Shown here one piece after another: positions 45,196 through 63,870 of a stretch of 64,000 nt of DNA. A program made the translations under genes and the position numbers. The stretch spans positions 795,501 through 859,500 of the forward strand of contig NZ_CP025513.1 of assembly GCF_003491345.1 (NCBI RefSeq). The letters run 5' to 3'. This DNA comes from Neorhizobium sp. SOG26 (GTDB taxonomy: Bacteria > Pseudomonadota > Alphaproteobacteria > Rhizobiales > Rhizobiaceae). The notes beneath the pieces were generated by a model. That model searched no databases. It saw only the letters and a list, made by a program, of their open reading frames with translations, and had not been told where the DNA came from. How positions within the stretch are numbered: position 1 is the stretch's first letter; each line of letters starts with the position of its first letter.

Positions 45196-45229
45196 AATAA
45201 TGAAATTCAAGCAGTCTCGGGAGGAGCGC

Positions 45230-46945: not shown

Positions 46946-46950
46946 AATGG

Positions 46951-46969: not shown

Positions 46970-47003
46970 TTGGTCAACTGTCTGTTACGGGAGGAATGGA
47001 CAC

Positions 47004-48038: not shown

Positions 48039-48045
48039 GCAAACA

Positions 48046-48582: not shown

Positions 48583-49897
48583 CCTCTTCCTTGGCGTCGT
48601 TGGTCTGGTTGCGCTCGTCGTCCTCATCGGCATCCGCGTCCCCATCGCCTATGCGATGATCGTCGTCGGCGCGGTCGGAACGGTGGCGCTCAATGGGCCG
48701 AACGTCTTCCTCAACCAGTTGAAGACTTTAGGCTTCAGCCAGTTTTCAAAATACGACCTGTCGGTCATCCCGATGTTCGTGCTGATGGGATATATCGCCA
48801 CCCGCGCCGGGCTGTCTCAGGATCTCTTCCGCGCCGCGAATGCCTGGTTCGGACGTTTGCGCGGCGGCGTTGCCATGGCGGCGATCGCCGCCTGCGCAGG
48901 GTTCGGTGCGGTCTGCGGCTCGTCGCTCGCTACGGCCACGACCATGGGGCAGGTGGCGTTGCCGGAACTGCGGCGCTACAGATACAAGGGTTCGCTGGCA
49001 ACCGGTACGCTCGCGGCCGGCGGATTGCTCGGCATCCTCATCCCGCCTTCGGTTGTCCTTGTTGTTTACGCCATCATCGTTGAAGCCAACATCGTTTCGA
49101 TGTTTGCGGCGGCCCTTATTCCCGGCTTCATCGCAGTCGCCATCTTCATCGTCGTCATTGCCGTTTTTGTCCGGATCTACCCGGATTCGGCACCGTTGAG
49201 CGGGTCGGTCGAGCGGGGCGAGTGGCTGGCGGCGACCCTTGGTGTCGTGCCGGTGCTCGGCATCTTCGTCATCGTGATCGGTGGCATCTATGCCGGCTTC
49301 TATAATCCCACACCGGCTTCGGCAGTGGGCGTCGCGTTGGTTGCAATCTACGGCTCGCTGCGTCGCGGCGTACGGCTTGCGGATTACAAATGGGCGCTGC
49401 TGGAAACCGCCAAGACAACAGGCATGATCTACCTGATCCTGCTCGGCGCCGAGCTGCTGAAGATCTTCATGTCGCGCGGCGGCGTGCCGCAAGCGGCGGC
49501 CGAGATGATGGTGACGTCCGGCCTTTCGCCGATGTTCATCCTGATCCTCATGCTGGTCGCGCTGATCTTCCTCGGTTGCCTGATGGACTCCATGTCCATG
49601 ATCCTGCTGGTGATGCCGTTCTTCTGGCCGGTTATCAGCGAGCTCGATTTCGGCATGGACCCCAACGACGTGAAGATCTGGTTTGGTGTGCTGGCGCTGG
49701 TGGTGGTGGAGCTTGGACTGATCACGCCCCCTGTCGGCATGAATGTCTTTGTTATCAACTCCCTGGCGAAGGACGTGCCCATGTGGGACACGTTCAAGGG
49801 CGTATTCCCCTTCTTCATCGGCGAGCTCGTTCGCCTCGCGTTGCTGATCGGCTTCCCCGCGCTGACACTCTGGTTGCCGCACATGGTCAGTGGCTGA
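48572..49897 (+). CDS. TRAP transporter large permease
   Basis: Inner-membrane permease of 441 residues, DctM type, about twelve helices. Family segments include FGAVCGSSLATATTMGQVALPEL and TPPVGMNVFVINSL. It completes the second TRAP system of the window. About 120 bases separate it from the MarR gene; a TTGACA at 49953-49958 is present there but no good -10 partner was found. Confidence 0.92.
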   Translation: MDHSLFLGVVGLVALVVLIGIRVPIAYAMIVVGAVGTVALNGPNVFLNQLKTLGFSQFSKYDLSVIPMFVLMGYIATRAGLSQDLFRAANAWFGRLRGGVAMAAIAACAGFGAVCGSSLATATTMGQVALPELRRYRYKGSLATGTLAAGGLLGILIPPSVVLVVYAIIVEANIVSMFAAALIPGFIAVAIFIVVIAVFVRIYPDSAPLSGSVERGEWLAATLGVVPVLGIFVIVIGGIYAGFYNPTPASAVGVALVAIYGSLRRGVRLADYKWALLETAKTTGMIYLILLGAELLKIFMSRGGVPQAAAEMMVTSGLSPMFILILMLVALIFLGCLMDSMSMILLVMPFFWPVISELDFGMDPNDVKIWFGVLALVVVELGLITPPVGMNVFVINSLAKDVPMWDTFKGVFPFFIGELVRLALLIGFPALTLWLPHMVSG

Positions 49898-50016: not shown

Positions 50017-50469
50017 ATGCATGACGAACAGGACACAGTTGGTCCGTTTTCGCGCAAGACCGACTGGCCCTACTACTGGGTGACGCGGGTCAGCGCCCGC
50101 TACATCAACGAGATGGAAAAACTGCTGAAGCCTGCCGGTCTGGATGTTCCGCGCTGGCGGGTGCTGTCGTCGCTTCGCGAGCACAGCCCCCTGGGTGTTT
50201 CCGAGATCTCCGACTACTGCATCCTGAAGCTGAACACGACGACGAAGATCGTGCAGCGTATGGTGGCGGATGGCCTGGTGACGACACGCAGCAGCCCACA
50301 GGACGCCCGGGTCACGGAAGTCAGCCTCACGAAGAAGGGAGAGGAGGCGGCCATTCGCGCCTCCCATTTCGCGGAAATGGTCTTCGACCGCACCTTCGCT
50401 GATTTCAAGCCGGACGAAATCGCCCAGATGAACCAGTTGCTGAAGCGGCTTTTCGAGAAGCTTGGCTGA
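50017..50469 (+). CDS. MarR-family transcriptional regulator
   Basis: Regulator of 150 residues with the MarR winged helix: recognition region LGVSEISDYCILKLNTTTKI (about 60-79) and wing TRSSPQDARVTEVSLT. It lies beside the IacB-like gene (stops abutting at 50469/50470) and near the divergent iacB/iacA-like promoters, where two copies of a 20-bp palindromic site occur. MarR proteins control indole-3-acetate degradation loci in other bacteria, and this is the probable local repressor, relieved by an aromatic acid. Confidence 0.9.
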   Translation: MHDEQDTVGPFSRKTDWPYYWVTRVSARYINEMEKLLKPAGLDVPRWRVLSSLREHSPLGVSEISDYCILKLNTTTKIVQRMVADGLVTTRSSPQDARVTEVSLTKKGEEAAIRASHFAEMVFDRTFADFKPDEIAQMNQLLKRLFEKLG

Positions 50470-50838
50470 TCAGTCCTGCGCGATCGCCGGGATCTCCAGC
50501 GCCCGGCCCATGCGCGCTTCGATGCGCATATAACGCCAAAGCCGGTATTCCCCGACCTCGATCGTCCGGAACAGGTTGCAGGCAGCCTGCACCGTTTCCC
50601 GATCCGGGCAGTCGGCCATCACGTAACACGTCCACGGGAAACCGGTGGGCGAGGTGCCGACCATCGTCTCGTCGTCATCCAGCGTCCCGAGAACCGTTAC
50701 GCCCGGAAGGTCCGCGACGCCGCGCAGGAAGGCGGAGAAACCTTTCCAAACCGGACCAATATCCTTGAATGGCAGGTCGAAGAAGTTCTGTTGGACGGCA
50801 ATGCAAAACAGCGTTCGGATCGGCTTCTTTTCTGCCAT
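50470..50838 (-). CDS. IacB-like protein (indole-acetate catabolism accessory)
   Basis: Soluble protein of 122 residues. The pattern (PIRTLFCIAVQQNFFDLP near the start, GTLDDDETMVG in the middle, PWTCYVMADCPD and ACNLFRTIEVGEYRLWRYMR later) matches what I remember of IacB, the small protein beside iacA in indole-3-acetate degradation clusters; its role is unproven. Start 50838 is preferred over 50859. It is divergent from the hydroxylase gene across 241 bases that hold two operator-like repeats. An alternative reading is a dimeric alpha/beta-barrel (muconolactone-isomerase-like) protein. Confidence 0.68.
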   Translation of the reverse strand: MAEKKPIRTLFCIAVQQNFFDLPFKDIGPVWKGFSAFLRGVADLPGVTVLGTLDDDETMVGTSPTGFPWTCYVMADCPDRETVQAACNLFRTIEVGEYRLWRYMRIEARMGRALEIPAIAQD

Positions 50839-50907
50839 GTCATCGTTCCCTTTGTTCATTTGACAGTGCTTGACCAAGCGTGTGGTCTGCGGTGAAGCTA
50901 GGGGAGA

Positions 50908-50927
50908 TTACGTGAAAAGTACAGTAA
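50908..50927. promoter_or_regulatory. Operator-like repeat, copy 1
   Basis: TTACGTGAAAAGTACAGTAA, a 20-bp imperfect palindrome between the IacB-like and hydroxylase genes. It matches copy 2 (50960-50979) at 15 of 20 positions in the same orientation. The centres are 52 bp apart, about five helical turns. Confidence 0.55.
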
Positions 50928-50959
50928 GCTCCAGGCGCCACGTTGACCGCTTGAAAGGA

Positions 50960-50979
50960 ATACGGTAAAACTACCGTAA
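50960..50979. promoter_or_regulatory. Operator-like repeat, copy 2 (perfect 7-bp arms)
   Basis: ATACGGTAAAACTACCGTAA contains the perfect inverted repeat TACGGTA-AAAC-TACCGTA (50961-50978). This is a typical size for a MarR dimer site. It lies about 100 bases before the hydroxylase ATG. Confidence 0.65.
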
Positions 50980-51079
50980 TAAGGGAACTACATCGGCGCA
51001 TCAAAAGCCTCGCCATCTGCATCTGACGGATGCCCCGTCCGGTGCCACGCTGGACCTGGCCGCGTCTTGGGAGCGAGAC

Positions 51080-52231
51080 ATGGCAGAACCCCTTGCAGTA
51101 CTACGCGACTCTTCGACCGAGCTTGCGGATCTTCTTGCAGAGATTCGCATGCGCAGAGGCGAGTTTGAAAAGCTGACCTATGTCCCGGTGGACATGGTCG
51201 CCAAGCTCCAGAAAATCGGCGTCTATCGCGCTTTCGTCCCCAAGGGGCTGGGCGGAGATGAAGTTTCCCCTGCTGAGTTCCTTCGTCTCATCGAAGCGCT
51301 GTCCACGGCCGATGCATCCACCGGCTGGGTGGCGAGCTTCGGAGTATCCTCGACCTATCTCGCATCACTGCCGAAGGAAACCTTCGAGCACATCTACGGC
51401 ACCAACCCGGATACGGTTTTTGCGGGAGCTATCTTCCCGCCCCAGACCGCGAAAAGGACTGCGAACGGCTTCAAGGTGACCGGGCGCTGGCCTTATTGCT
51501 CGGGCAGCATGGGCGCTTCGCTCATCGGCGCCGGCATCAAGGTAGACGACGGAGAGGCGGGCGGTGGACTACCGCGCATGGCAGTCATGCCGCGCAACAA
51601 GGTATCGATCAAGCACACCTGGGATTCCGCAGGCCTGACGGCAACCGGCAGCCATGACATCGTCGCGGACGGCGTCGAGGTGCCGGAGGACTGGACCTTT
51701 GTCCGCGGCTCTCCCGCCAATCGCTCCGAACCTATCTTCCGTTATCCGGCGATGGCGCTGGCGGCCCAGGTGCTCGCCGTCGTGGGTCTCGGATCGGCAC
51801 GCGAAGCCTTGGATTGGATCAGAGGCGAGGCTGCAGGCAAACCCTCCATTACCGGAGCCCCCTCGCTTGGGGCACGGCCGCATATCCAGTCAGAGCTCGG
51901 AAAGGCGGAGGCGCGACTGGGCGCTGCGCGCTCCTACTTCTACGATACGGTAGAAGGCGCATGGGAAACCGTGCTGGCCGGCGGCGGCCTCTCACAGGAA
52001 CAGCGCGTGACGCTGCGGCTTGCCGCGACGAACGCGGCGAGCGAAGCTGCCTCTGTTGCTCAATCGGCTTTCTATATGGGTGGTACGTCTGCGATTGCGC
52101 GCGGGCACGTCCTTGTCCGTTGCATGCTGGATACGGCGTCGGTTGCACAGCACGCGTTCCTCGGTATTGGAACATGGACGTCGGCCGGTGCCGGGCTACT
52201 CGGTGAAAAGACACCTCCCGGTTATCCCTGA
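51080..52231 (+). CDS. Acyl-CoA-dehydrogenase-like flavin-dependent hydroxylase (IacA-like)
   Basis: Protein of 383 residues with the acyl-CoA dehydrogenase fold of the HpaH/DszC-type monooxygenases, which use reduced flavin from a partner reductase. Visible segments are LSTADASTGWVASFG, GRWPYCSGSMGA, TWDSAGLTATGSHDI and a C-terminal SAFYMGGTSAIARGHVLVRC. Size and motifs agree with IacA, which starts indole-3-acetate oxidation. The genes after it encode an SDR (32-base gap) and a flavin reductase, fitting partners. The promoter region upstream carries two operator-like repeats. Confidence 0.8.
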   Translation: MAEPLAVLRDSSTELADLLAEIRMRRGEFEKLTYVPVDMVAKLQKIGVYRAFVPKGLGGDEVSPAEFLRLIEALSTADASTGWVASFGVSSTYLASLPKETFEHIYGTNPDTVFAGAIFPPQTAKRTANGFKVTGRWPYCSGSMGASLIGAGIKVDDGEAGGGLPRMAVMPRNKVSIKHTWDSAGLTATGSHDIVADGVEVPEDWTFVRGSPANRSEPIFRYPAMALAAQVLAVVGLGSAREALDWIRGEAAGKPSITGAPSLGARPHIQSELGKAEARLGAARSYFYDTVEGAWETVLAGGGLSQEQRVTLRLAATNAASEAASVAQSAFYMGGTSAIARGHVLVRCMLDTASVAQHAFLGIGTWTSAGAGLLGEKTPPGYP

Positions 52232-52263
52232 TCAAGACCTATCGAGTTGAGGAGGAGCAAGCT

Positions 52264-53025
52264 ATGACGGCACCCGACGGGATCGGACCGCAAACTGCCA
52301 TTGTCACCGGAGCCGCGGCTGGTGTCGGCGCCGAGATTGCCCGCGCCCTGCACGCCGCCGGGCTGCGCGTTGTTGCAACCGATGTGGATGAAGCCGGTGC
52401 CGCTGCCTTGGCACATGCGTTGGATCAAAGCGGCGAGACGGCGCTTTCGCAGAAGCTGGATATCGCCAAGCCGGAAGATTTCCAGCATGTGCTTGATTGG
52501 ACGGTTGAGCGTTGGGGTTCCGTTCAGGTTCTCGTCAACAACGCCGCGATGACCAAGGCGCGCCCGGTTCTCGAGATCGAGACGGACGAGTTCAACGAGA
52601 TCATGGCGGTGAATGCCGGTGGCACGTTTTCCGGCTGCCGCATCCTGGGCCGGTATTTCAAGCAGCAGGGCTACGGGCGCATCATCAACATGGCCTCGCT
52701 GGCGGGGCAGAACGGCGGCACCGCCACCGGCGCGCATTATGCCGCATCCAAGGGCGCGATCCTCACGCTCACCAAGGTGTTCGCGCGCGATCTCGGACCA
52801 TTCGGCGTGACGACGAATGCCATTTCGCCGGGCCCGATGGACACGCCTCAGGTGCGGTCGATCGTTCCGGAAGCCGCACTGCCAGGCTTGATCGCCGGCA
52901 TCCCCGTCGGTCGTCTGGGCGATACCGGTATTGTCGCCGAACTGGTCGCCTTCCTTGCCTCTACCAAATCGGGCTTCGTGAATGGCGCATGCTGGGACGT
53001 CAACGGCGGCCTGTTCATGCGCTGA
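52264..53025 (+). CDS. SDR-family oxidoreductase (IacE-like)
   Basis: Short-chain dehydrogenase of 253 residues with an intact NAD(P) motif TGAAAGVGAEIA, NNAA segment, and catalytic Ser-Tyr-Lys (SLAGQNGGTATGAHYAASKGA). The ATG at 52264 follows GAGGAGGAG. In iac-type clusters an SDR cooperates with the IacA hydroxylase in making dioxindole-3-acetate; this gene's position directly after the hydroxylase supports that role. By sequence alone it could be any 3-oxoacyl-type reductase. Confidence 0.83.
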   Translation: MTAPDGIGPQTAIVTGAAAGVGAEIARALHAAGLRVVATDVDEAGAAALAHALDQSGETALSQKLDIAKPEDFQHVLDWTVERWGSVQVLVNNAAMTKARPVLEIETDEFNEIMAVNAGGTFSGCRILGRYFKQQGYGRIINMASLAGQNGGTATGAHYAASKGAILTLTKVFARDLGPFGVTTNAISPGPMDTPQVRSIVPEAALPGLIAGIPVGRLGDTGIVAELVAFLASTKSGFVNGACWDVNGGLFMR

Positions 53026-53045
53026 CAAAAGAGGAGCCGGCGGCG

Positions 53046-53534
53046 ATGCATCCGAAGGCACTGGATTTCCGCGAGGGCATGAGCCGGCTCGGCGCTGCCG
53101 TCACGCTCATCACCACAGATGGCCCGGAAGGCCGGCATGGCATGACGGCGTCGGCCGTCTGCTCCATCACCGATGACCCGCCGACTCTGCTTGTCTGCGT
53201 CAATCGCACCAATCGCTCGCATGACCTGTTCAACGGCAACGGAAACCTCTGCGTCAACATCCTTGCAGGGCGACATCAGGAACTGGCGAATGCCTTCGCT
53301 GGTCGCGGCGGAACCGAACGGTTTACCGGCGGCGAATGGAACACGTTGACAACGGGCGCACCGGTGCTGGTGGACGCCGTAGCCGCCTTCGATTGTCGCA
53401 TCGTTGAACGCGTTGCCATTGGCACGCATTCAGTGTTCTACGGCCGGGTAGAGGCAGTGCATCTCAACGACGCGCCGCCCGAAGCGCTGATCTGGTTCGG
53501 CCGCGGTTTTCACACACTCGTCGCTCAATCGTAG
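53046..53534 (+). CDS. Flavin reductase (HpaC/IacG type)
   Basis: Flavin:NAD(P)H reductase of 162 residues of the FMN-binding split-barrel family. Family segments are GMTASAVCSITDDPPTLLVCVN and LCVNILAGRHQELANAFAG, and the C-terminal FGRGFHTL. It supplies reduced flavin to the hydroxylase. The ATG at 53046 has GAGGAG upstream. It is last in the three-gene plus-strand operon and convergent with the ligase gene 29 bases away. Confidence 0.87.
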   Translation: MHPKALDFREGMSRLGAAVTLITTDGPEGRHGMTASAVCSITDDPPTLLVCVNRTNRSHDLFNGNGNLCVNILAGRHQELANAFAGRGGTERFTGGEWNTLTTGAPVLVDAVAAFDCRIVERVAIGTHSVFYGRVEAVHLNDAPPEALIWFGRGFHTLVAQS

Positions 53535-53562
53535 ACATCGGCGCGTTGGTTGCGCCGACGTG

Positions 53563-55191
53563 TCAGCGCGTGAGCTTGTAGCCTGCCTTCTCGCGATCCC
53601 AGGTGTTCTCGGTAACGCCCTTGGCCGTCAGCTTGTACTTCTGCACCTTGCCGTTTTCCGTGAGCGGGAGCTCGGTCACAAAGTCGATGAAGCGCGGAAC
53701 CGAGAAATAGGACATCCGTGGTTGGCAGAAATCCAGAAGTTCTGCCGGTGTCACGCTCGTCCCCTGCTTCAGCACGATCGCCGCCATCACCTCGTCTTCC
53801 GCGAGTTCGGACTGGACGGGGAACACGGCGACGTTCTCGACAGCCGGATGCGCCACGATCACCTGCTCGACCTCGTAAGACGAGATATTCTCGCCCCGCC
53901 TGCGGATCGCGTCCTTCATCCGGTCGAGGAACTGGATATAGCCATCGCTGTCCATCACCACGCGGTCGCCCGTGTGGAACCAGAGATTGCGCCAGGCCTC
54001 AATGGTTTTTTCCGGCATACCGAAATAACCCGTGGCGGTCGAAAAAGGCTCGTGCGGGCGCACGACCAGTTCTCCTGGCGTGCCGGCCGGAAGGCTGTTG
54101 TCGCTTTCGTCAAAGACAGCCAAGTCAAACCCGGGACGCGCTTTGCCCACACGCCCCGGCTTCTGCTCATGATAAAGGCTGCCGATCACGAAATTGGTTT
54201 CGGTGGAGCCGTAGCCTTCCAGCATCTCGACGCCGAAGCGTTCAGTAAACGGTCCGTGGAACTGCGGCGGCACGCCGGGTGCAAGAGCAATACGCGTCTT
54301 GTGCGCGCGATCTGCCGGCGAAGCTTCCTTCGACAGGAGCATGGGGACCATGGCGCCGAGCAGATAGGTGACCGTTGCCCCGGATTCTGCCAGTGACGTC
54401 CAGAAGCGCGAGACGGAAAACTTCGGTTCAAATGTCACCGGCGCGCCCGTGAGCAGCGCCTGGTAGAAGGTGTTCAGCGCGTTGGTGTGGAACAGCGGCA
54501 GGCAGGTCAGCAGCACATCATCGTCATCGATGCCGAGAAGGGCTGCCGTATGAACGCCCCACCAGAAATATTGCGCATGAGGACAGCAGACGCCTTTGGA
54601 AAGGCCGGTCGTGCCCGAGGTATAGAGGATGGCGACGGTGTCCGAAGGCTTGCATGGATGCGCGTCGATATGGGCTGTCGGCTCGGGAAGCGGTGCGTGT
54701 TTCACCTTCAGATCGATATTGGCCGGCACCTTGCCGATCGTCCAGATCTGCTGAAGCGGCAGGTCTGTCGGAAGGTTTGCAAACACGTTGAGGAAGCTAG
54801 CCTCAACGATTGCGAGGCGAGCCCCGCAGTTCTTCAGGATGTGCTCCAGCTGCGCGCCACGCGAGGCGTTGTTGATCGGCACTGCAATTGCGCCAGACCA
54901 TGCACAGCCCAGGAAAGCGGTTAGGAATTCGATGCGGTTGCTGCACATGATCGCGACCGTGTCGCCAGGCTTGATCCCGGCTTCGCGCAGCATGTGGCCC
55001 GCGCTTCCTGCCAATGCCTTCGTCTCGGCAAAGCTGAGGGAGCGATCACCAAAGGTGACGAGCCGTCGATCGCCGTAGCGCTCCGCCTGGCGGGTCATGA
55101 TCTGCGGGAAGGTCCGCTCCTCGGGGGCGAACACGTCTTTCAGGCCAAAGACCTTTGCTTCGCGGTTCCGTTCGATCTCAACTCGGTTCAT
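53563..55191 (-). CDS. AMP-dependent acyl-CoA ligase (CaiC-like)
   Basis: ANL-family ligase of 542 residues. The P-loop AILYTSGTTGLSKGV, the GYGSTETN segment, the hinge-region LDRMKDAIRRRGENISSYEVE and the C-terminal catalytic Lys in TENGKVQKYK are all present. It forms an acyl-adenylate and then a CoA thioester. Start 55191 has GGGGAG 4 bases upstream. It is the last gene of the long minus-strand operon running from LivH. In the proposed pathway it would activate dioxindole-3-acetate for cleavage; other carboxylic acids are possible. Confidence 0.87.
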   Translation of the reverse strand: MNRVEIERNREAKVFGLKDVFAPEERTFPQIMTRQAERYGDRRLVTFGDRSLSFAETKALAGSAGHMLREAGIKPGDTVAIMCSNRIEFLTAFLGCAWSGAIAVPINNASRGAQLEHILKNCGARLAIVEASFLNVFANLPTDLPLQQIWTIGKVPANIDLKVKHAPLPEPTAHIDAHPCKPSDTVAILYTSGTTGLSKGVCCPHAQYFWWGVHTAALLGIDDDDVLLTCLPLFHTNALNTFYQALLTGAPVTFEPKFSVSRFWTSLAESGATVTYLLGAMVPMLLSKEASPADRAHKTRIALAPGVPPQFHGPFTERFGVEMLEGYGSTETNFVIGSLYHEQKPGRVGKARPGFDLAVFDESDNSLPAGTPGELVVRPHEPFSTATGYFGMPEKTIEAWRNLWFHTGDRVVMDSDGYIQFLDRMKDAIRRRGENISSYEVEQVIVAHPAVENVAVFPVQSELAEDEVMAAIVLKQGTSVTPAELLDFCQPRMSYFSVPRFIDFVTELPLTENGKVQKYKLTAKGVTENTWDREKAGYKLTR

Positions 55192-55223
55192 CGTCTCCCC
55201 CACTCCTTTTTCTCCGGCCTCGA

Positions 55224-56003
55224 TCAGTCCTGAACCAGCGCCAGCACCCGCAACGGGCTCCCGGAACCGTTCTGGATCTTGAGCGGCGCAGCGAAGATCA
55301 GGCTGCCGGTCGGTGGAAGCTGGTCGAGATTGGTGAGGCACTGCAAGCCGTAGCGTCCGGCGCCATGCAGGTAGTGATGGGCGGGGTAAGGCGGCGAGAA
55401 ATGCCCCGCCTGGCCCGCATCTGTTCCGATCGTTTCCGTTCCGAGCCCGATAATGCCACGCTCCTCGACGAGAAACCGCATGACCTCCGCGTCTGGCCCC
55501 GGCGTATGCGCGCCATCAGCCTGGAGGTTCGCGTAAGCGGCGCCGGACTTCTTCGACCAATCCGTGCGCAACAGCACCCAGGAGCGTTCGGGAATTCGGC
55601 CGTGCTGGTCCTCCCAGTGGGCGACATCCGACACGGTGAAGAGGAAGTCCGGATCTTTGGCGGATTGTTCGGAGCGATCGATGACGCAGGCCGGCGCGAT
55701 CATGTCGGCGGGCGGAAGCGTGTCGACCGAGTTCAGTGGCAGGTCGCGGCCGGTGTACCAATGGATCGGCGCGTCGAAATGCGTGCCCGTGTGCTCGCCG
55801 AAGGAGAGGTTATTCCAGTACCAGGCAGGCCCGCCGCCGTCATAACGCGAGATGCGCTCCATGCGGAAGGGAGCCGACTGGCCCAGTTCCGGTGGCATAA
55901 CGATCACCGGAAAATCGGGCGACAGCGTGTGGGTGAGATCGACGATCCTGACCTCCCCGCCGCCGAGGGCACTCGCCAGCGATGCAAGAAGATTGCTGCT
56001 CAT
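55224..56003 (-). CDS. Cyclase-family amidohydrolase (isatin hydrolase/kynurenine formamidase-like)
   Basis: Metal-dependent hydrolase of 259 residues. The signature HTGTHFDAPIH gives likely Mn ligands His71, His75 and Asp77, with His81 following. This spacing matches isatin hydrolase (reported ligands His73, His77, Asp79, from memory) as well as bacterial kynurenine formamidase. It would open the lactam of isatin to give isatinate. It overlaps the DUF35-SDR gene by four bases and precedes the ligase gene by 32. The specific isatin assignment is inferred from context. Confidence 0.82.
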   Translation of the reverse strand: MSSNLLASLASALGGGEVRIVDLTHTLSPDFPVIVMPPELGQSAPFRMERISRYDGGGPAWYWNNLSFGEHTGTHFDAPIHWYTGRDLPLNSVDTLPPADMIAPACVIDRSEQSAKDPDFLFTVSDVAHWEDQHGRIPERSWVLLRTDWSKKSGAAYANLQADGAHTPGPDAEVMRFLVEERGIIGLGTETIGTDAGQAGHFSPPYPAHHYLHGAGRYGLQCLTNLDQLPPTGSLIFAAPLKIQNGSGSPLRVLALVQD

Positions 56004-57244
56004 TGCCCCGCCTCCCGTTCAACAGCCTTGGGATTGTCGAGGAGCCTGGCTTCCAGGTCCTTTGCGACATCGCCCACGTAAAGGTCTTCCAGTCCTCGCT
56101 TGAGGCCGTCTACGATGGCATCAGCAAGTGTCTTCGGCGCAAGTTTCGGCGGCGGTACCGTCTGGAACCACTCGGCATCGAGCGGTCCGGCAAACGCGTT
56201 CATCAGCCGTACCCCACCTTGGCGAAGTTCATGGCGCAACCACTGGGACAGTGAAAGGCACGCCGCCTGGCTGGCGGAATGGATTCCAAACTGGGGAACG
56301 CTGCTCAAGGCGTGTACGGAAAGCACGTTCACCCAGGCCGCCGCGCTGTTGACGCCATCGGCGCCGCGCGATCGCACGACCGGGCCAAAGGCCTGCGCCA
56401 GTCGCATCAACCCCATGAGGGTGTGGTCGAGCGTGTCGCGGGCGCTTGCGGCAGCACCAGCGTCGAACAGATGCACCTGCCGCACATGGTCAGCGGTATT
56501 GATTAGGATGTCGACCTTGGCCCCGATATCCTTGGCGAGATCCTGCACCGATCGCTCGCTCGTAAGATCCAGGTCGACAAGTTCGACGCCCTCGATGATC
56601 TCGAGTGCCGCCCTTCCATCGAAGGGTTTCCAACGATCAGCTATGCCGACGAAGATCTTCGCCGCGCCCGCCTTCTTGAGGGCCTGCACCAGGGGGGGCG
56701 CAAGCGAGCTGCGGCCATCGGTCAGCAGGATGCGGCGGTGCTTGGGATCGGCTGTCAGCTCTCGCAGCTGGCGGTCATCTTCCATATGAGGGGTCTCCGA
56801 AAGAGGCTTGCCGAAGAACACGGCTTGGCCGGCTCGGTCCAGTTGCAGGCTAAGCGTGAGCAGACTGCCCGGCCCGCCGCAGTCCCCGTGCAGATGCGCG
56901 ACCACAGTTGGTCCGCAATCGAGCTTCACGAGACCCGCGCGCCACGGCATCCTTTCACGATAATAAGGATCGCTCGTGACGCCGATCTGAGTTTCGGACA
57001 ACAGGGTACCGCTTGCCGGCGCATCGCGGAACGGCAGATTGGACGACAGGCAGTTCGGGCAGGCATCACGGGTGGGATAGGTGTATTGCCCGCACTCATC
57101 GCAGCGCTGCAGCATGAAACGACCGTGCGCAGCCGCGCGGGTGAAGCCATGCGCCTTTCGGCTGCGCGACGAGGGTGGCAGAAGCGGTTGGTTGGTGCGC
57201 GCGAGCGGGTTCTTTCGCTTGGGCTTGGGAAGTGGCTCGGTCAT
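56000..57244 (-). CDS. DUF35 zinc-ribbon/OB protein fused to a degenerate SDR domain
   Basis: Protein of 414 residues. The N-terminal zinc ribbon has Cys48, Cys51, Cys62 and Cys65, followed by an OB-fold (about 70-150), the DUF35 type that partners thiolase-fold proteins. The C-terminal part (about 170-400) is SDR-like but has lost function: the nucleotide loop reads TDGRSSLAP instead of TGxxxGxG, and the active-site Tyr and Lys are His322 and Gln326 (HSASQAA). It is therefore probably a structural or regulatory subunit. The gene overlaps the thiolase-like gene by one base (TAATG), which suggests a stoichiometric complex. Confidence 0.8.
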   Translation of the reverse strand: MTEPLPKPKRKNPLARTNQPLLPPSSRSRKAHGFTRAAAHGRFMLQRCDECGQYTYPTRDACPNCLSSNLPFRDAPASGTLLSETQIGVTSDPYYRERMPWRAGLVKLDCGPTVVAHLHGDCGGPGSLLTLSLQLDRAGQAVFFGKPLSETPHMEDDRQLRELTADPKHRRILLTDGRSSLAPPLVQALKKAGAAKIFVGIADRWKPFDGRAALEIIEGVELVDLDLTSERSVQDLAKDIGAKVDILINTADHVRQVHLFDAGAAASARDTLDHTLMGLMRLAQAFGPVVRSRGADGVNSAAAWVNVLSVHALSSVPQFGIHSASQAACLSLSQWLRHELRQGGVRLMNAFAGPLDAEWFQTVPPPKLAPKTLADAIVDGLKRGLEDLYVGDVAKDLEARLLDNPKAVEREAGQ

Positions 57245-58452
57245 TAGGGCCTCGCAAGGATGGCGGCGGCGGAGGCAAGGCCGCGGTCGTAGTTGATCAT
57301 GCCGAAGCCGGAAACGATGCCCAGTTCGGCGTCCTTGACCTGGGTGCCGCCGGCGGTGCCGAGCAACTGGCGCATCGCCTCGGTGATCCCGAGGTGACCG
57401 CCGGCCGCCCCCGCCTGACCGACAGATAGCTGACCACCCGAGGTATTGTGCGGGATCGTCCCGTCGATCGTGAAGGTGTTGGAGCGGACGAAGTTCGCGC
57501 CTTCGCCCTTGCCGCAGAAGCCAAGGTCTTCGAACTGCATCATCGAGATGACTGGGTAATCGTCATAGGTCTGGACGAAGTCCAAGTCCGATGGCTCGAC
57601 TCCGGCCATGCCGTATAGCTCGTCGCGATCGACCACCCAGCCGCCACGTACCTGCACGGGATCCTCGGAAAAGGCATTGTGTCGTTCGATCGCCGAAAGC
57701 AGCCGTACGAATGGCAGGCCAAGCTCCTGCGCAGTTTCCTCGCGCATCACCAGAAACGCTTCTGCACCCGCGCAAGGCATGACGCAGTCGAAGAGATGCA
57801 GCGGCTCGGCGATCGGTCGCGCCGACATGTATTGGTCGAGCGTCAGCGGCTTCTTCATCAGCGCGTTCGGGTTCTTCAGCGCATTATCGCGCTGCGCCAC
57901 GCACAGCTTGCCGAAATCTTCACGCCGGGCGCCGTAGGTGTCCATGTAATGGCGCGCGATCAGCGCGAAGCTGCCGTTCGCGCCGCCAGCGCCATAAGGA
58001 TAAACGGCATCCTGCGAGAACCGTGAAAAGCCTGCGAGAAGATGGCGGAAGCTGTCGACGCGGTTGGTGTCAGCCGCCACGCAGGCGACGATATCCGCGT
58101 CACCGGCCTGGACAGCGCGCGCGGCACGCCGAATAGAGACGATGCCGGCAGCACCACCCATCGGCACGTGGTCGATATGGCGCGGCGACAGCCCGAAATG
58201 CTGCGTCAGCCCGATGGCAACATCCGGGCCCATGGTGAAGCTCGCGACAGAGAACCCATCGAACTCCCGGTGGCTGATTCCTGCGCCCTCGGAAAGCGCG
58301 CGCAGCGCCTTGCCCATCCACCAGGGCGCCGCCTCGATCGAGTAGCGCTGATACGGCACGGTCACGGGGACAGCGAGGACGACGCCGTCATAACCGCGCC
58401 GTGCACGTGCAAACCGCCCGCGGCCATATGCTTCCGATGCAGCAACCGTCAT
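57244..58452 (-). CDS. Thiolase-fold protein lacking thiolase catalytic residues (Ltp2-like aldolase candidate)
   Basis: SCP-x/Ltp2-type thiolase-fold protein of 402 residues. The position of the nucleophilic Cys reads GGAAG (99-103), the GHP His is replaced (NTSGG, then VGQAGAAGG, Gln346), and the last Cys is missing ([11 protein letters not shown]). Thiolytic chemistry is therefore unlikely. Ltp2 of steroid degradation has similar losses, needs a DUF35 partner and performs retro-aldol cleavage using Tyr residues; Tyr296, Tyr299 and Tyr388 are candidates here. With its DUF35 neighbour it could cleave a 3-hydroxyacyl-CoA such as dioxindole-3-acetyl-CoA. It overlaps LivF by four bases. Confidence 0.82.
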
Positions 58453-59168
58453 GCGGCGCCGCCGAGATACGCCGTCATCAAGCGTGGATCCTGGAGCAGT
58501 TCCTGGGCGGGGCCGTGGTGGGCGATCTCCCCCGTTTCCAGCACATAGCCATAATCTGCTGTTTCCAGCGCGGCACGTGCGTTCTGCTCCACCAGCAGGA
58601 TGGAGACGCCGGCCTTTCGGAGCGATGCGATGATCTGGAAGATCTCGCGAACGATGAGCGGCGCAAGGCCAAGGCTCGGCTCGTCCAGCAACAAAAGGCG
58701 CGGCTGCGACATCAATGCTCGCCCAAGGGCCAGCATCTGCCTTTCGCCGCCTGAAAGCGTGTTGGCCTGCTGACGGCGACGCTCAGCAAGGCGCGGGAAC
58801 TGCTCGTAGACTGCCGCCAGGCGCTCCTGAAAATCGCTGCTCTTGTAGCGGCGCGAATAGGCGCCAAGCAGAAGGTTATCGGCGACCGACATTTCACCAA
58901 ACAGCTCCCGCTTTTCCGGAACAAGGCAAAGCTTGCGCTGAACGCGTTCTTCGACATCCAGCCGTTGCAGGTCCTGGCCCTCGTAGCGGATGGTTCCGCG
59001 GCTCGGGAGCAAACCCATCAGCGCACTCAGCATGGTTGTCTTGCCGGCGCCGTTAGGCCCAATCACGGTGACGATCTGGCCTGGCTGGATGGACATCGAT
59101 ACGCCGCGGACAGCCTCCACCTTGCCGTAACCGACATGGAGGTCGTTTACCTCAAGAAGAGCTGTCAT
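58449..59168 (-). CDS. Branched-chain-type ABC ATPase LivF
   Basis: ATPase of 239 residues with Walker [10 protein letters not shown], signature [14 protein letters not shown] and Walker [13 protein letters not shown]. It overlaps the LivM-LivG fusion gene and the thiolase-like gene by four bases each, tying uptake to catabolism in one transcript. It serves the second Liv-type importer of the window. Confidence 0.92.
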
Positions 59169-60937
59169 GCGGTACCTCCGAGATAGGCATCCTGCACGCG
59201 CTTGTCGGCGCGCACATCTGCGGGAAGGCCTTCGGTCAACTTGGATCCGAATTCCATCACCACGATTCGGTCGACGAGATCCATCACGAACTCCATGTCG
59301 TGTTCGACAAGGAGAATGGTGACGCCTTCGCCACGCAGGGAACGAAGCAGATCTGCAAGTGCCTTTTTCTCCAGCCGGCGGAGACCTGCTGCCGGCTCGT
59401 CCAGAAGGAGTAGGGCAGGGTCGGCGGCAAGGGCTCTGGCGATTTCCAGAATGCGCTGCTGGCCAAGCGCGAGGTTGCCCGCCAGCTCATGCGGATTGTC
59501 GCCAAGCCCGCATCGACGCAACTGCCGCATTGCCTCGTGCCGGGCGCGGCGCTCCTCAGCCTGGTTCAGCCGCAACGCGCCGGCAAGGAAACCAGACGAG
59601 GTTCTGCGGTATGCGCCAAGCATGACGTTGTCGATGAGAGACATCGTCGGGCGAAGCTTGACGTGCTGGAAGGTGCGGGAAAGACCAAGCGACGCGATCC
59701 TGCGCGGACCATAGGAAGTGATGTCCTGCCCAAGGAAGCGGACGCGACCTTCGGTGGGGCCCAAGACGCCGGAAATCAGGTTGAACATGGTGCTCTTGCC
59801 TGCACCATTGGGGCCGATCAGCGCGACGATCTCACCCGTCCTGACGGTGAAATCCACTTCATTGACCGCAACGAGGCCTCCGAAGCGCTTCACCACCTTG
59901 TCAACTTCCAGCATCAGCGAACCCGGCTCGGGCATTACGCGGCGTGGCATTTCCTCGGCCTCGGCCGGCATCGGGAGCGCCCGGCGCGGAAGCCAGCGCT
60001 GGACGGAAGCCACGATGCCCGTGCGTGCATATTGCAGCAGCAGGATGAAGATGACGCTGAAGATCACGGTCTCAAACGGCCCGGCATTCGAGGTAATGCT
60101 GGGCAGCACGTCCTGCAGGAAGTTCTTGGCCACGCTGGTGAAGGCGGAACCGACGATGGCGCCTGCAAGATATCCTGAACCGCCCGAGATCGCCATGAAC
60201 AGGTAGTCGATGCTGGCGCGAACATCGAACGGGGCGGGGCTGACGAAACGGCTCATATGCGCGTAGAGCCAGCCGGACAGACCGGCGAGTAGAGCCGCGA
60301 TGACAAAGGTGTAGAGCCTGATGCGGAATGTATTGATCCCGAAGCTCTCGCTCATGATCCGGCCGCCGCGCAGACTGCGGATCGCGCGGCCTTCCCGCGA
60401 CCTCAGGAGGTTCCAGCACAGGAGGGCTGAGATGCACACCGTGATCCAGATCAGCACGTACATCGCGCCGTTGGTGGCAAAGGAGATCGGCCCCAGCGTG
60501 ATCGGCGGCACGCCGGACAAGCCGCCGAAGCGGCCGAGGCTGTCCATGTTTCCGAACAGGAAATAGATCGAGATGCCCCATGCAATCGTGCTGAGCGGCA
60601 GGAAATGCCCACCGAGTCGCAAGGTCACGGTGCCGATGACCAAAGCAGCGACACCGGTCAGCACCAGAGCAAGCACGAGACCAGCCCAAGGGGAAAGGCC
60701 GTAGGCAGTCGTGAGCCAGGCGGTCGAATAGGCGCCAACACCGACGAAGGACGCCTGGCCGAAAGAGGTCAGCCCGCCGATGCCGGTCAGCAGCACCAGG
60801 CCGAGTGCGACCAGCGCATAGATGCCGATGTAGTTCATCAGCGTCACGGCAAAGGTCCCGGCAAACGACGGCAGCAGGACGAGCACGAGGAGGCCTGCGA
60901 TCAATGGCAGCCGGGCGATCAAGCTGGAATTGCTCAC
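59165..60937 (-). CDS. LivM-LivG fusion: ABC permease fused to ATPase
   Basis: Single protein of 590 residues. Residues about 1-320 are a LivM-type permease with about ten helices ([21 protein letters not shown]); after a linker (about 325-345) follows a LivG-type ATPase with Walker [25 protein letters not shown] as signature and Walker [12 protein letters not shown]. The GTG start overlaps the LivH stop and uses a purine-rich GAGGAAGAGGAG ribosome site lying in the LivH coding end. Fusion fixes a 1:1 ratio of pore and ATPase. Confidence 0.9.
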
Positions 60938-61980
60938 TCCTCTTCCTCCTCTTCCTCATGGGATGCAGCGCTGATCGATCGCCAGAGCAGAACCGGGATC
61001 AGGAAACTGAAGATGACGACTTCCTTGAAAGCGCTGTTCCAGAAGGAGGCGTAGCTTTCCAGCAGGCCGACGAAGAGCGCGCCGAGTGCGGTGATCGGAT
61101 AGCTGACGAGGCCGCCGATGATCGCGCCGACAAAGGCCTTCAATCCGAACAGGAAGCCGGAGTCATAGTAGATGGACGTGATCGGGCCGATAAGGACGCC
61201 GGCGACACCTGCAAGCAAGGAGGCCAGGAGAAACGCGACATCGCCCGTCACCGTCGGCCGGATACCCATAAGGCGAGCGCCGACGCGGTTGACCGCCGTC
61301 GCCCGCAGCGCCTTACCCGTATGAGTGAACTCGAAGAACAGGTAAAGCAGGCCCATGAAAACAACAGACGCCAGCACCACCAGCATGGCCTGGGCGGAAA
61401 CCACCGTGCCACCGATCTCGTAGATCGCATCGCTCAAGGGTTCGGTGCGGAAGCCTTCCGGCCCGAAGAAGATCAGGCCGAGACCTGCCAGTGCAAAGTG
61501 AAGCGCGACCGCCACGATGAGCAGCACCAGGACGGGCGCATCCGCGATCGGTCGAAACGCGAGGCGATTGAGGAGCGGTCCAAGAGGAAGCACGAGCAGG
61601 ACGGCAAGGATGACTTCGATCGCCATCGGCATGTCGGTCTGTGCCAGCGCAATGCACAGAAGCACGGGGATCATCGGCAGGACGAAATAGACCGCGGCGA
61701 AGGAGGGGATCTTTCGCGCGCGCCCGGAGCGTACAAGCCTCGCAGCCTCTGCAAGAAGGGTCAGGCCCGCCACCACTGCCACCAGCCAGACCGTTCCGGG
61801 CAGTTGACCGGACTGCAGTGCTGCAAGCGTCAGCGCTGTAAAGGCTGCGAGGTCTCCGAACGGCACGAAGACAACACGGGTGACGGAGAAGATCAGGACG
61901 ATACCGAGTGCGACGAGCACATAGATCGCGCCGGTTGCAATGCCGTCCACTCCCAGGATCAATGCGATTTCTGCCGTCAA
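60934..61980 (-). CDS. Branched-chain-type ABC permease LivH
   Basis: Inner-membrane permease of 348 residues with the LivH N-terminus GIATGAIYVLVALGIVLIFS; longer than the usual 290 because of an extra segment around 80-120. The start is TTG 61980 with GGGGAG 6 bases upstream, since no in-frame ATG fits. The protein ends in seven glutamates encoded by the purine repeat that serves as ribosome site for the next gene. It is first in the eight-kilobase minus-strand operon reaching to the CoA ligase, divergent from the second MarR gene. Confidence 0.88.
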   Translation of the reverse strand: MTAEIALILGVDGIATGAIYVLVALGIVLIFSVTRVVFVPFGDLAAFTALTLAALQSGQLPGTVWLVAVVAGLTLLAEAARLVRSGRARKIPSFAAVYFVLPMIPVLLCIALAQTDMPMAIEVILAVLLVLPLGPLLNRLAFRPIADAPVLVLLIVAVALHFALAGLGLIFFGPEGFRTEPLSDAIYEIGGTVVSAQAMLVVLASVVFMGLLYLFFEFTHTGKALRATAVNRVGARLMGIRPTVTGDVAFLLASLLAGVAGVLIGPITSIYYDSGFLFGLKAFVGAIIGGLVSYPITALGALFVGLLESYASFWNSAFKEVVIFSFLIPVLLWRSISAASHEEEEEEE

Positions 61981-62006
61981 CTAGTGCTCCCCACCATCAG
62001 CCTAGA

Positions 62007-62031
62007 TTTGAAACAAAAATTTGCATACAAA
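62007..62031. promoter_or_regulatory. Tandem TTTG-N-CAAA operator candidates
   Basis: TTTG-AAA-CAAA (62007-62017) and TTTG-CATA-CAAA (62020-62031) lie in tandem in the 75-base divergent gap between LivH and the second MarR gene. A related, more perfect palindrome occurs before the binding-protein gene at 62658. Placement suggests autoregulation and control of the whole minus-strand operon. Confidence 0.5.
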
Positions 62032-62055
62032 GATACCAACTTCAAGGAGAAAATC

Positions 62056-62628
62056 ATGAGCCAAACATCGGCATCTGCTACTAAAGAGACTGGCGCCACT
62101 GCTGACGCTGCCGTCGATGAAGGCGTGCGGCATGAGCAGGCCGTGAACGCGTTCGAATATGCGATCTGGCACCTTGGCTCCTCGTTTGCCCGCTGGCGCC
62201 GCGACTGTCTGGCATGCCTCCCCGAAACGTCATTGACCGGCGCCGAGGCCTCGATCCTGCATGTCATCCACCTGAATGGTACGGACAAGGGCATCACCGA
62301 AATCAGCCGATTGCTTCACCGCGACGACATGGCGAACCTGCAGTACGGGATCAAAAAGCTTCTTGCGCAAGGGTATATCGAGAAGGCCAATGCCTCCGCA
62401 CCGAAGAAGAACGTCGCCTACCGCACGTCAAGCAAGGGTGCGAAACTTGTCGAGGACTACCTGACGGTTCGACGCGAAACGCTGATGAAACTTACGGACC
62501 GCATGCCGGGCATGACCGATGCGATCAACGAGGTGACGATGATGATGCACATCATGATCGGGATCTACGACCAGGCGAGCAACATCGTGGCCGGGCATGG
62601 CGGCCCACTTGGGCGTCTGCAGCCTTGA
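62056..62628 (+). CDS. MarR-like winged-helix regulator
   Basis: Regulator of 190 residues with a MarR-type winged helix (about 60-140: LTGAEASILHVIHLNG, ITEISRLLHRDDMANLQYGIKKLLAQ) and an extended N-terminus. The ATG at 62056 has AAGGAGA upstream; the open frame extending back over the LivH gene is antisense noise. It is divergent from the LivH operon and 87 bases before the binding-protein gene, with TTTG/CAAA palindromes on both sides, so it likely controls both units. Two MarR-type regulators are also known at iad-type loci (from memory). Confidence 0.84.
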   Translation: MSQTSASATKETGATADAAVDEGVRHEQAVNAFEYAIWHLGSSFARWRRDCLACLPETSLTGAEASILHVIHLNGTDKGITEISRLLHRDDMANLQYGIKKLLAQGYIEKANASAPKKNVAYRTSSKGAKLVEDYLTVRRETLMKLTDRMPGMTDAINEVTMMMHIMIGIYDQASNIVAGHGGPLGRLQP

Positions 62629-62657
62629 CCAATAAATTGTGCTGACAACCCGGGGGC

Positions 62658-62670
62658 TTTGTGCAACAAA
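62658..62670. promoter_or_regulatory. TTTGT-GCA-ACAAA palindrome before the binding-protein gene
   Basis: A perfect 5-bp-arm palindrome, the best copy of the TTTG/CAAA motif also seen at 62007-62031. CTGACA (62642-62647) could be a -35 element placing the palindrome over the -10, a repressor position. Confidence 0.52.
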
Positions 62671-62715
62671 TTTCCCATGACAGCCATGTCTGCGGCTGTT
62701 AACTGGGAGAAGATC

Positions 62716-63870
62716 ATGAAAAAAATGAACATATGGCTTTTGGGTAGCGCCTTGGCGGCAGTTCTGTCTGCTGGAAGCGCGGTCGCAGCTGAAATCAAGG
62801 TTGGCTTTGTGACATCGATGTCGGGCCCGGCTTCCTCGCTGGGTATTCCGTATTCGAAGGGCTTGGCCGCTGGCCGCCAGTCGATTTCCGAGATCGAAGG
62901 GAACACGATCAAGGTCATCGAGCTGGACGACGCGTCCGATCCGACGGCTGCGGCGAGAAACGCGCGCAAGCTGGTCGAGGAAGAAAAGGTCGACCTGCTG
63001 ATCGGCAGCGCCGGTTCGCCGGCCGCGCTTGCCATGGCGGCCGTCGCATCCGAACTGAAGGTTCCGCTGATCTCGATCGCCAATGCCAATCCGACCGGGG
63101 AGGCTGGTGCCTGGACGATCACGGTTCCGCAGCCCGCACCGCTGATGGTGAGCGCGCTGGTCGAACACATGAAGAAGAACAATGCCAAGAGCATTGGCTA
63201 TATCGGCTTCAGCGATCCTTGGGGTGACCTCGTCTACGACGCGTTGAACGAAACGACCAAGGGCTCCGACATCAAGATCGCGACCAATGAACGCTTCGCA
63301 CGCTCTGACTCGTCGGTCACCGCGCAAGCTCTCAAGATCGTCGCCGCTCGCCCTGACGTGGTGGTGACGGGTGGATCCGGCACGCCAGGCGCGCTGCCCC
63401 ACATCGCTCTTGCCGAACGTGGCTTCAAGGGCACCGCCTACGGCACGCACGCGATCATCAACCCCGACTTCGTTCGCGTCGGCGGCAAGGCGGTCGAAGG
63501 CGTCATCGCTCCGAGCGGCCCTGTGGTTGTCGCCGAGCAGCTTCCGGATTCCAACCCCATCAAGAAGGTCGCGATGGATTTCCGCAAGGACTACGAGGCC
63601 GCCAACAAGGAAAGCAACTACAACGCTTTCGCGGCCTACAGCTATGACGCCTGGCTGCTGTTTGCGGATGCTGCAAAGCGCGCCCTGCCAAAGGCTACCC
63701 CCGGCACGCCCGAATATCGTGCGGCGCTGAAGGAAATGCTGACAAGCACCAAGGAAGTTGTCGGCACGCATGCCGTCTACAACTTCACGCCGGATAGCCG
63801 GTACGGAACCGACGAACGCTCTCGCGTCCTCGTCCAGCTCAAAGACGGCAAATGGTCGCTGGTCGAATAA
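62716..63870 (+). CDS. Branched-chain-type ABC substrate-binding protein (aromatic-acid type candidate)
   Basis: Periplasmic type-I binding protein of 384 residues with a signal peptide ending VAA before EIKVGFVTS (about residue 24). The ATG at 62716 has GGGAGA upstream; an earlier ATG at 62686 or 62659 would place coding sequence over the palindrome. It is the missing periplasmic part of the LivH/LivMG/LivF importer encoded on the other strand. Members of this subfamily bind aromatic acids in other bacteria; indole-3-acetate is the ligand I would predict from context. A strong terminator follows. Confidence 0.88.
   Translation: MKKMNIWLLGSALAAVLSAGSAVAAEIKVGFVTSMSGPASSLGIPYSKGLAAGRQSISEIEGNTIKVIELDDASDPTAAARNARKLVEEEKVDLLIGSAGSPAALAMAAVASELKVPLISIANANPTGEAGAWTITVPQPAPLMVSALVEHMKKNNAKSIGYIGFSDPWGDLVYDALNETTKGSDIKIATNERFARSDSSVTAQALKIVAARPDVVVTGGSGTPGALPHIALAERGFKGTAYGTHAIINPDFVRVGGKAVEGVIAPSGPVVVAEQLPDSNPIKKVAMDFRKDYEAANKESNYNAFAAYSYDAWLLFADAAKRALPKATPGTPEYRAALKEMLTSTKEVVGTHAVYNFTPDSRYGTDERSRVLVQLKDGKWSLVE

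Follow-up and report, generated by a model that had tools for sequence, protein, structure and literature searches.

A probable chimeric cluster for indole-3-acetic acid catabolism in Neorhizobium sp. SOG26, combining an iac-type upper half with an iad-type lower half

A cluster of 14 genes in Neorhizobium sp. SOG26 probably encodes a chimeric route for the catabolism of indole-3-acetic acid (IAA), in which the upper half of the iac pathway and the lower half of the iad pathway are joined at dioxindole-3-acetate (DOAA). The cluster occupies positions 50017–63870 of the analyzed 64-kb stretch (the window; positions 795501–859500 of C3, a 1.17-Mb contig and one of the three that make up the 4.56-Mb genome). 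Judged by sequence, the upper part and the first regulator are of iac type (iacR, iacB, iacA, iacE, iacG), and the lower part together with the importer is of iad type (CoA ligase, iadG, iadH, iadI, LivHMGF and an IadK2-type protein). A first forward block starts with a MarR regulator (MarR1, iacR-like) and, after an iacB-like gene on the opposite strand, continues with iacA-, iacE- and iacG-like genes; a reverse block holds the CoA ligase, iadI, iadH (DUF35 fused to a short-chain dehydrogenase/reductase (SDR) domain), iadG (thiolase fold), LivF, LivM-LivG and LivH; and a second forward block consists of another winged-helix regulator and the periplasmic binding protein. Every named gene is a long unbroken open reading frame (ORF). 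Thirteen of the 14 products match Pfam families (MarR, Acyl-CoA_dh, SDR, flavin reductase, AMP-binding, Cyclase, zf-ChsH2/OB_ChsH2 (DUF35), Thiolase_C_1, ABC_tran, BPD_transp_2, winged helix and Peripla_BP_6), the exception being the IacB-like protein, for which Pfam and NCBIfam searches gave no match. An earlier sequence-only reading of the region had listed the same genes and called the organism a rhizobium, which holds at the family level. All of its genes proved real, with the starts of the flavin reductase, the CoA ligase and the second regulator corrected to 53046, 55191 and 62056; its Liv-type importer stands, with LivM and LivG fused (590 residues), as does its pair of DUF35 and thiolase-fold proteins, except that the SDR-like part of the 414-residue DUF35 protein had been missed.

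In E. coli, the IacA and IacE homologues of C. glathei convert IAA to DOAA without IacB (PMC7225977), and deletion of iadF, iadG, iadH or iadI in Variovorax is reported to cause accumulation of C10H9NO4, identified as DOAA (PMC12633357). Since IacA and IacE yield DOAA and the products of iadF–I act after it, the two pathways share this intermediate, and the chimera would be joined there. In the proposed scheme, IAA would be imported by the IadK2-type binding protein and LivHMGF, oxidized to 2-oxindole-3-acetate by IacA with the flavin reductase IacG, and converted to DOAA by IacE. The CoA ligase would then form DOAA-CoA, a tertiary beta-hydroxyacyl-CoA, which IadG together with the DUF35 protein IadH is predicted to split by a retro-aldol reaction into the ketone isatin and acetyl-CoA, with Tyr296 of IadG as putative base and Asp298 as putative acid. 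IadI, a close homologue of a characterized enzyme, would turn isatin into isatinate. Expression is presumably repressed by IacR bound to a candidate TACGGTA-N4-TACCGTA operator, from which IAA would release it. Isatin and isatinate have been described in Pseudomonas LY1, which carries an iac-type cluster and for which other genes were suggested for that branch (PMC8383072); this fits an exchange of modules at DOAA. Import of IAA and its degradation to isatinate plus acetyl-CoA had been proposed in the sequence-only reading, and the computational tests that were run agree with it. That reading also expected a lower route different from that of iac; what escaped it is that this lower half is that of the known iad pathway, that IadG has the signature of a retro-aldolase and that a second chimera exists in the genome G641 (G and L numbers denote genomes and loci).

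Relative to the iac locus (iacABCDEFGHI-R; P. putida 1290, A. baumannii, C. glathei), the cluster shares iacR, iacB, iacA, iacE and iacG and the conversion of IAA to DOAA, but the window has no iacC, iacD, iacF, iacH or iacI, and DOAA would proceed to isatin instead of catechol. With the iad locus (Variovorax paradoxus CL14, Achromobacter, Bradyrhizobium) it has in common iadG, iadH, iadI, the Liv importer, the IadK2-type protein and the isatin route. It differs from that locus in lacking iadCDE, iadJ and iadA/B, with iacA, iacG and iacE in their stead, and in its IacR-group regulator and a ligase of a different subfamily.

Each of the five upper genes resembles its iac counterpart. MarR1 (50017–50469, +) has as its best PDB match 7kua (E 6e-34), named as P. 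putida IacR in PMC9613470, compared with an E value of only 5e-10 for 7kfo (V. paradoxus MarR_73, the IadR structure), and thus falls in the regulator group that the same paper ascribes to iac-like loci. It is 46–69% identical to the MarRs adjoining eight alphaproteobacterial iac clusters, 31% to that of Acinetobacter and 81% to that of G891, a member of the same family. The IacB-like protein (50470–50838, −) shares 58% identity with the protein occupying the iacB position in L027, a Gemmobacter iac cluster, and 84–88% with its counterparts in three relatives (L125, L127, L128). The IacA-like flavin monooxygenase, which has an acyl-CoA dehydrogenase fold (51080–52231, +), shows 55–60% identity to the IacA proteins of six iac clusters from Alphaproteobacteria (57% to Gemmobacter), so that both iac-like marker genes of PMC9613470, iacA and iacB, are present; identities to the proteins of G891, G846, G926 and G641 are 81, 74, 73 and 70%, respectively. 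Compared with the same six clusters, the IacE-like SDR dehydrogenase (52264–53025, +) reaches 65–69% (Gemmobacter 68%), retains YxxxK and GxxxGxG and is merely 27% identical to IadJ, and the IacG-like flavin reductase (53046–53534, +; PF01613, E 7e-44) reaches 57–64% (Gemmobacter 59%). The Acinetobacter iac cluster contains the same gene types at lower identities (IacA 49%, IacE 50%, flavin reductase 27%) and gave no IacB match. Genes of the iacH, iacC, iacD and iacF types are annotated alongside in the Gemmobacter, Thioclava, Martelella and Sagittula clusters; names such as iacB and iacG in the compared clusters are ones that we assume from gene order and the literature rather than from annotation. 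The sequence-only reading had stated that it would fall if the hydroxylase and the IacB-like protein grouped away from IacA and IacB. Both group with iac-cluster proteins, and for the hydroxylase both equivalog models, HpaH and HsaA, score far under their cut-offs (93/650 and 126/450 bits). In a tree of 27 IacA-like sequences, the window pairs with G891 (support 100/97), followed by G846 and G926, both of which carry iacC, iacD, iacF and iacH, and then by G641; trees for IacB, IacG, IacE and MarR1 are short and mostly weakly supported.

The candidate operator lies between iacB and iacA (50961–50978) and is the sole exact match to its pattern in the genome. With up to two mismatches allowed, two other genomic places match, compared with 20 matches per strand for a control in which the pattern was read backwards. 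A second candidate copy, with three mismatches, is found at 50909–50926; shuffled versions of the window yield 0.26 matches at that level. Exact copies also occur in the iacB–iacA gap of G891 (L125, 4800–4817) and in the iacH–iacR gap of G846 (L126, 15902–15919, where the iacH ORF begins at 15875). As G846 carries a Rieske-type iac cluster, the candidate site appears to go with the iac-type MarR, not with the lower module.

The absence of Rieske genes of the iacC/iacD type from the window, asserted in the sequence-only reading, was confirmed: searches of the 64 kb with IacC, IacD, IacF, IacH, IacI, IadC, IadD, IadE, IorA and IorB gave no match at E ≤ 1e-5. Accordingly, the window contains no adjacent iacC/iacD pair, the feature by which PMC9613470 recognizes iac-like loci, and no iadCDE oxygenase. 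The marker iacI of that paper was not found within the window, the rest of the genome not having been searched for it, and the same scope applies to the iad markers iadA/iadB (IorAB-like), which were likewise not found. Genome-wide, the search for IadD returned just one distant Rieske protein, the only Ring_hydroxyl_A protein present, which is 35% identical to IacC and 31% to IadD over about half of each. We rejected this protein as a displaced IacC or IadD. Within the window, no gene was recognized for converting isatinate to anthranilate.

Central to the proposed lower half is IadG (57244–58452, −), which is likely, from its residues and predicted structure, a retro-aldolase of the Sal/Ltp2 type and not a thiolase. 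A Foldseek search of 350,542 PDB chains placed 9myr_A first and 6ok1_A fifth (model with a predicted local distance difference test (pLDDT) score of 78 and five stretches below 50). 9MYR is the steroid aldolase formed by Sal and the DUF35 protein Shy; in related work on CtSal, a retro-aldol reaction on a steroid releases acetyl-CoA and involves Tyr302, Cys304, the supporting Gln347 and Gln352, and a complex with a DUF35 protein (PMC12329534). In all 92 aligned IadG sequences, Gly99-Gly100 replace the thiolase Cys, the aligned thiolase His is Gln, and Y296-D-D-Y299, Q341 and Q346 are kept. The spacing of Tyr296, Gln341 and Gln346 (45 and 50 residues) is identical to that of CtSal Tyr302, Gln347 and Gln352, and Asp298 stands, again in 92/92 sequences, where CtSal has the catalytic Cys304. 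YDDY and GGQLS were both present in 114/114 loci checked, a count that includes overlapping fetches of the same places. The partner IadH (56000–57244, −) combines DUF35, i.e., a ChsH2-type zinc ribbon and OB fold (zf-ChsH2 and OB_ChsH2_C above cut-off; PDB matches 6ok1_B, E 1e-4, and 9myr_B, E 8e-4), with a degenerate SDR domain. All four zinc Cys are conserved in 92/92 sequences, and the SDR Tyr and Lys occur together in just three of them. In the predicted model (pLDDT 87) the larger domain has an SDR fold, the 50 matches listed being all SDRs.

IadG/IadH thus resemble the Sal-Shy and Ltp2-ChsH2 steroid aldolases (9MYR, 6OK1) in the thiolase-fold subunit with a DUF35 partner, the Tyr base and the lost thiolase Cys, and Sal in particular in the spacing of the Gln pair. 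They differ in having YDDY instead of YDCY or YDHF and a DUF35 domain fused to an SDR-like domain instead of MaoC, and their predicted substrate is an oxindole. The general acids known from these enzymes, Cys304 of Sal and Tyr344 of Ltp2, are replaced by Asp298 and Gln346 in IadG, which may therefore work like Sal without being classed as Sal or Ltp2. Three points tell against the retro-aldolase assignment. The second match in the fold search is a true thiolase, 7yvy, so that the fold alone leaves the matter undecided and the residues decide; the CtSal oxyanion-hole residue Gln161 is not kept, aligning with Ala158; and exchange of CtSal Cys304 for Ala, Ser or His abolished activity (PMC12329534), so that Asp at that place is an unproven acid.

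The roles published for Variovorax would make IadG a ketothiolase, IadH a dehydrogenase and IadI a broad amidase, with reductive removal of the side chain to dioxindole. The preprint PMC12633357 assigns such roles from annotation, and its metabolite data speak for them: C8H7NO2, the formula of dioxindole, was found in the iadI deletion, and this compound, not isatin, follows IadFGH, which is read there as a reductive step. Other enzymes reducing isatin to dioxindole could equally account for C8H7NO2. Together with the missing thiolase residues of IadG, the rarity of an intact Tyr/Lys pair in IadH, a DUF35 partner in G891 that has no SDR domain at all, and the isatin-hydrolase pocket of IadI described next, this makes the published scheme an unlikely one for the cluster.

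IadI (55224–56003, −) belongs to the Mn cyclase family and matches isatin hydrolase A of Labrenzia aggregata (PDB 5nnb, E 1.2e-114). It carries the HxGTHxDxPxH metal motif, and its Trp61, Trp63, Trp82, Tyr206 and Gln221 correspond to the five pocket residues named in PMC6117287, Trp59, Trp61, Trp80, Tyr204 and Gln219 of LaIHA (chain numbering taken as protein numbering); by motif and pocket it is a predicted isatin hydrolase A, and no difference relevant to function was found between the two. The acyl-CoA ligase, to which we ascribe the IadF role of activating DOAA (53563–55191, −), exceeds the cut-off of the NCBIfam equivalog PRK06155 (817/722 bits). It is about 30–37% identical to the IadF-position ligase of most iad operons, 48–61% to another ligase of iad loci that adjoins the Liv importer in L059, L060, L074 and L079 and sits at the IadF position in L093, and 67% to its G891 counterpart.

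The importer comprises a LivF-type ATP-binding cassette ATPase (58449–59168, −; PF00005, E 1e-32; 75% identical to its counterparts in L128 and L167), the LivM-LivG fusion of permease and ATPase (59165–60937, −; PF02653 at residues 31–300, PF00005 at 359–516, PF12399 at 566–588; 72% to L128) and a LivH-type permease (60934–61980, −; PF02653, E 1e-21; 73% to L128). Beyond it lie the second winged-helix, MarR-like regulator (MarR2; 62056–62628, +; PF13463, E 1.8e-9; 69% to its G641 counterpart) and the IadK2-type periplasmic binding protein (62659–63870, alternative start 62716, +). The latter is 63–67% identical to the K2-position proteins of Variovorax and its kin and retains S104, N126, F168, W172, R199, F308 and Y311, seven of the eight IadK2 residues named in PMC10374108. 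At position 125, both the window and the aligned Variovorax K2-position proteins have Ala, compared with Thr in that paper; the residue numbering of this loop may therefore be off. Joint change of S104 and W172 abolished IAA binding by IadK2, and the paper describes for IadK3 the V104/L172 that we see in the next binding protein downstream in L092, L095 and L108 (V104/W172 in L111; PMC10374108). The pocket is unlike those of K3-position and Bradyrhizobium-type proteins. In the PDB, 7ylt matches best (E 1.6e-158); we guess it to be IadK2, the entry name being generic and the code not found in the text of the paper. L130 and L131 are complete iac clusters from the family that adjoin a Liv importer together with a binding protein having the IadK2 pocket (59–60% to the window), and importers thus seem to be exchanged between pathway types.

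This pocket bears on the actual substrate. IacA and IacE of C. glathei also accept other indoles, among them indole-3-propionic and indole-3-butyric acid (PMC7225977), and the nearest lower modules adjoin a different oxygenase or none, so that the cluster might serve indole-3-propionate, -butyrate, -lactate or an oxidized plant auxin in place of IAA. We consider this improbable to a high degree: besides the IadK2-like pocket, the two-carbon side chain of IAA fits the retro-aldol release of acetyl-CoA, and an isatin hydrolase fits the product of that reaction.

G641, which belongs to the same family, stands alone in its genus group and has a contamination estimate of 6%, has the same chimeric arrangement in one stretch, in the order binding protein, MarR2, LivH, LivM-LivG, LivF, IadG, IadH, IadI, ligase, SDR, IacB, flavin reductase, IacA, MarR. 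This is the window's order reversed, save that the IacE-like gene, IacB and MarR1 differ in place or direction. Relative to the window, the importer genes and MarR2 are 69–75% identical and IacA, IacB and the flavin reductase 70–84%, compared with 55% (ligase), 49% (SDR), 47% (MarR1) and 63, 49 and 65% (IadG, IadH and IadI). The IadGHI tree included 92 of 109 loci, after removal of two duplicates and 15 loci of the Bradyrhizobium group (supports from the SH-like approximate likelihood ratio test only). In this tree the window clusters with N. galegae, G624 and R. oryzicola loci of the luciferase type (support 100), and G641 stands elsewhere with L167 and L188; L167 (G452) is an ordinary iad locus, with IadC, IadD, IadE, ligase and IadJ further along. 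A common origin of IadGHI in both chimeras was rejected (approximately unbiased test, p 8e-58). In the IacA tree, a group of the window, G891 and G641 was weakly rejected (p 0.032); as this group was named after the first comparisons, two recruitments of the upper half are possible and not secure. Different lower branches on the same kind of upper cassette imply either two joins or one join with later replacement of IadGHI, and the likeness of importer, MarR2 and gene order makes a single ancestral locus, with IadGHI replaced in one line, an alternative to two separate joins. That a decayed iac remnant and an intact module for another substrate are mere neighbors without a joint pathway, as the absence of iacC, iacD, iacF, iacH and iacI from the window and the different histories of the two halves might suggest, is very improbable, since all genes are intact, recurrence of this gene set in G641, almost unchanged in order and with a lower module from another branch, would be unlikely without a functional link, and G891 retains iacRBAEG (80–87% identity, on a 7.4-kb contig that has no iacC) with iadF/iadG-like genes elsewhere: on another contig it has a ligase and an IadG, both at 67%, as well as a DUF35 protein of at most 201 residues.

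Such chimeras are rare among the genomes searched. Within the window's genus, 5/57 genomes have an IacA match (own included, E ≤ 1e-80), the other four being 40–57% identical and all accompanied by iacC. In the family, the same threshold gave 14/394 genomes, the 13 others consisting of the G641 chimera, G891 and 11 with iacC adjacent. Samples of the order and the class gave IacA matches in 3/199 (E ≤ 1e-50) and 3/385 genomes (E ≤ 1e-90), own genome included; the class-wide search added no chimera, G361 having neither iacC nor iadG within 20 kb and the match in G027 not having been looked into. A scan of the contigs of 84,980 genomes for IadH relatives confirmed at least 186 loci; among the best 80 of these, 14 of which are shorter than 15 kb, neither IacA nor IacB found a match at E ≤ 1e-5, and 5/80 have a flavin-reductase match. 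Across these and other loci fetched, the IadG-IadH-IadI block that marks an iad-like locus stands together in 109, the window and at least two duplicates included. Of these, at identity thresholds of 44, 45 and 48%, 52 have a Rieske IadD-like protein, seven a luciferase-like monooxygenase, two IacA (the window and G641) and 48 none of these within the DNA covered; the last class includes short contigs, so that failure to see an oxygenase in it means little. In Variovorax (L092, L095, L108) the genes stand in the published order C-D-E-F-G-H-I-J, with the binding protein next.

Weighed as a whole, the reading as a chimeric IAA pathway has further points against it: the ligase is not an orthologue of Variovorax IadF (about 33%), no exact operator copy was found in G641, the window's IadGHI is nearest to that of loci with a luciferase-type monooxygenase (N. 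galegae, R. oryzicola), and the complete chimera was seen in two genomes only. Nevertheless, we favor, somewhat more tentatively than the chimera itself, a third aerobic IAA architecture in which iac is joined to iad at DOAA with two different lower modules, and in which IadG/IadH, here and in iad loci at large, would act as a non-steroid, DUF35-dependent retro-aldolase with Asp as acid, converting DOAA-CoA to isatin and acetyl-CoA. In PMC9613470, iac-like and iad-like types were defined by a scan for adjacent iacC and iacD, and hybrids inside that set; PMC11630574 reports iac-like, iad-like and fragmentary iad-like clusters. A survey anchored on iacC-iacD misses loci like this one, and the auxin-degrading trait may therefore be undercounted. 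Among open-licence PMC papers, we found no report of an iac/iad chimera free of iacCD or of a retro-aldolase role for IadG/IadH, and the text of PMC12633357 contains no word beginning with "aldol". If true, the IadG/IadH reading would fill an unassigned step of the isatin pathway with testable, redox-neutral retro-aldol chemistry for the side-chain removal that PMC12633357 leaves to annotation. DOAA would be an exchange point for swapping oxygenases, useful for reading and building auxin-degrading root bacteria. As suppression of community-induced root growth inhibition is reported for iad-type strains only (PMC9613470), the chimera raises the question of whether its behavior in plants is iac-like or iad-like.

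Several neighborhoods of the related loci are of interest in their own right. The iacRBAEG cassette of G891 adjoins a gene for an M20-type peptidase (L125, 520–2040), a family that includes auxin-conjugate hydrolases. In G665, an IacB-like gene (49%; L162, 2088–2465) comes immediately after IadI on a contig of 5 kb that also holds IadH and a part of IadG, with no IacA of that genome among the matches listed. In L032, L033, L065, L069 and L159, IadGHI adjoins genes for a luciferase-like monooxygenase (PF00296), a flavin reductase and racemase-like, HpcH-like and Ohr-like proteins, with neither IacA nor IadCDE; the luciferase-like monooxygenase is possibly a further oxygenase feeding the IadGHI module. 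L035–L056, of the Bradyrhizobium group, combine IadGHI with a ligase, a Liv importer, racemase-like and mostly Ohr-like genes and have no recognized oxygenase within 10 kb. The L035 binding proteins have a different pocket (A104/S125/P126), and this module is perhaps one for plant-oxidized auxin.

Immediately upstream of the cluster in the window, positions 44363–49897 encode a thiamine pyrophosphate (TPP)-requiring enzyme, a tripartite ATP-independent periplasmic (TRAP) transporter and an IclR/PcaR-type regulator. The report of C7H7NO in PMC12633357 made the TPP enzyme (45125–46945; PRK08327, 643/456 bits) attractive as an isatinate decarboxylase of the pathway; it was rejected because, in the other loci searched, IadGHI is not accompanied by any close relative of it (a single match, at 22%). 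Further upstream, 37658–44348 contains genes for shikimate-dehydrogenase-like and flavin adenine dinucleotide-dependent proteins, after which comes another Liv-type importer, unrelated to that of the cluster.

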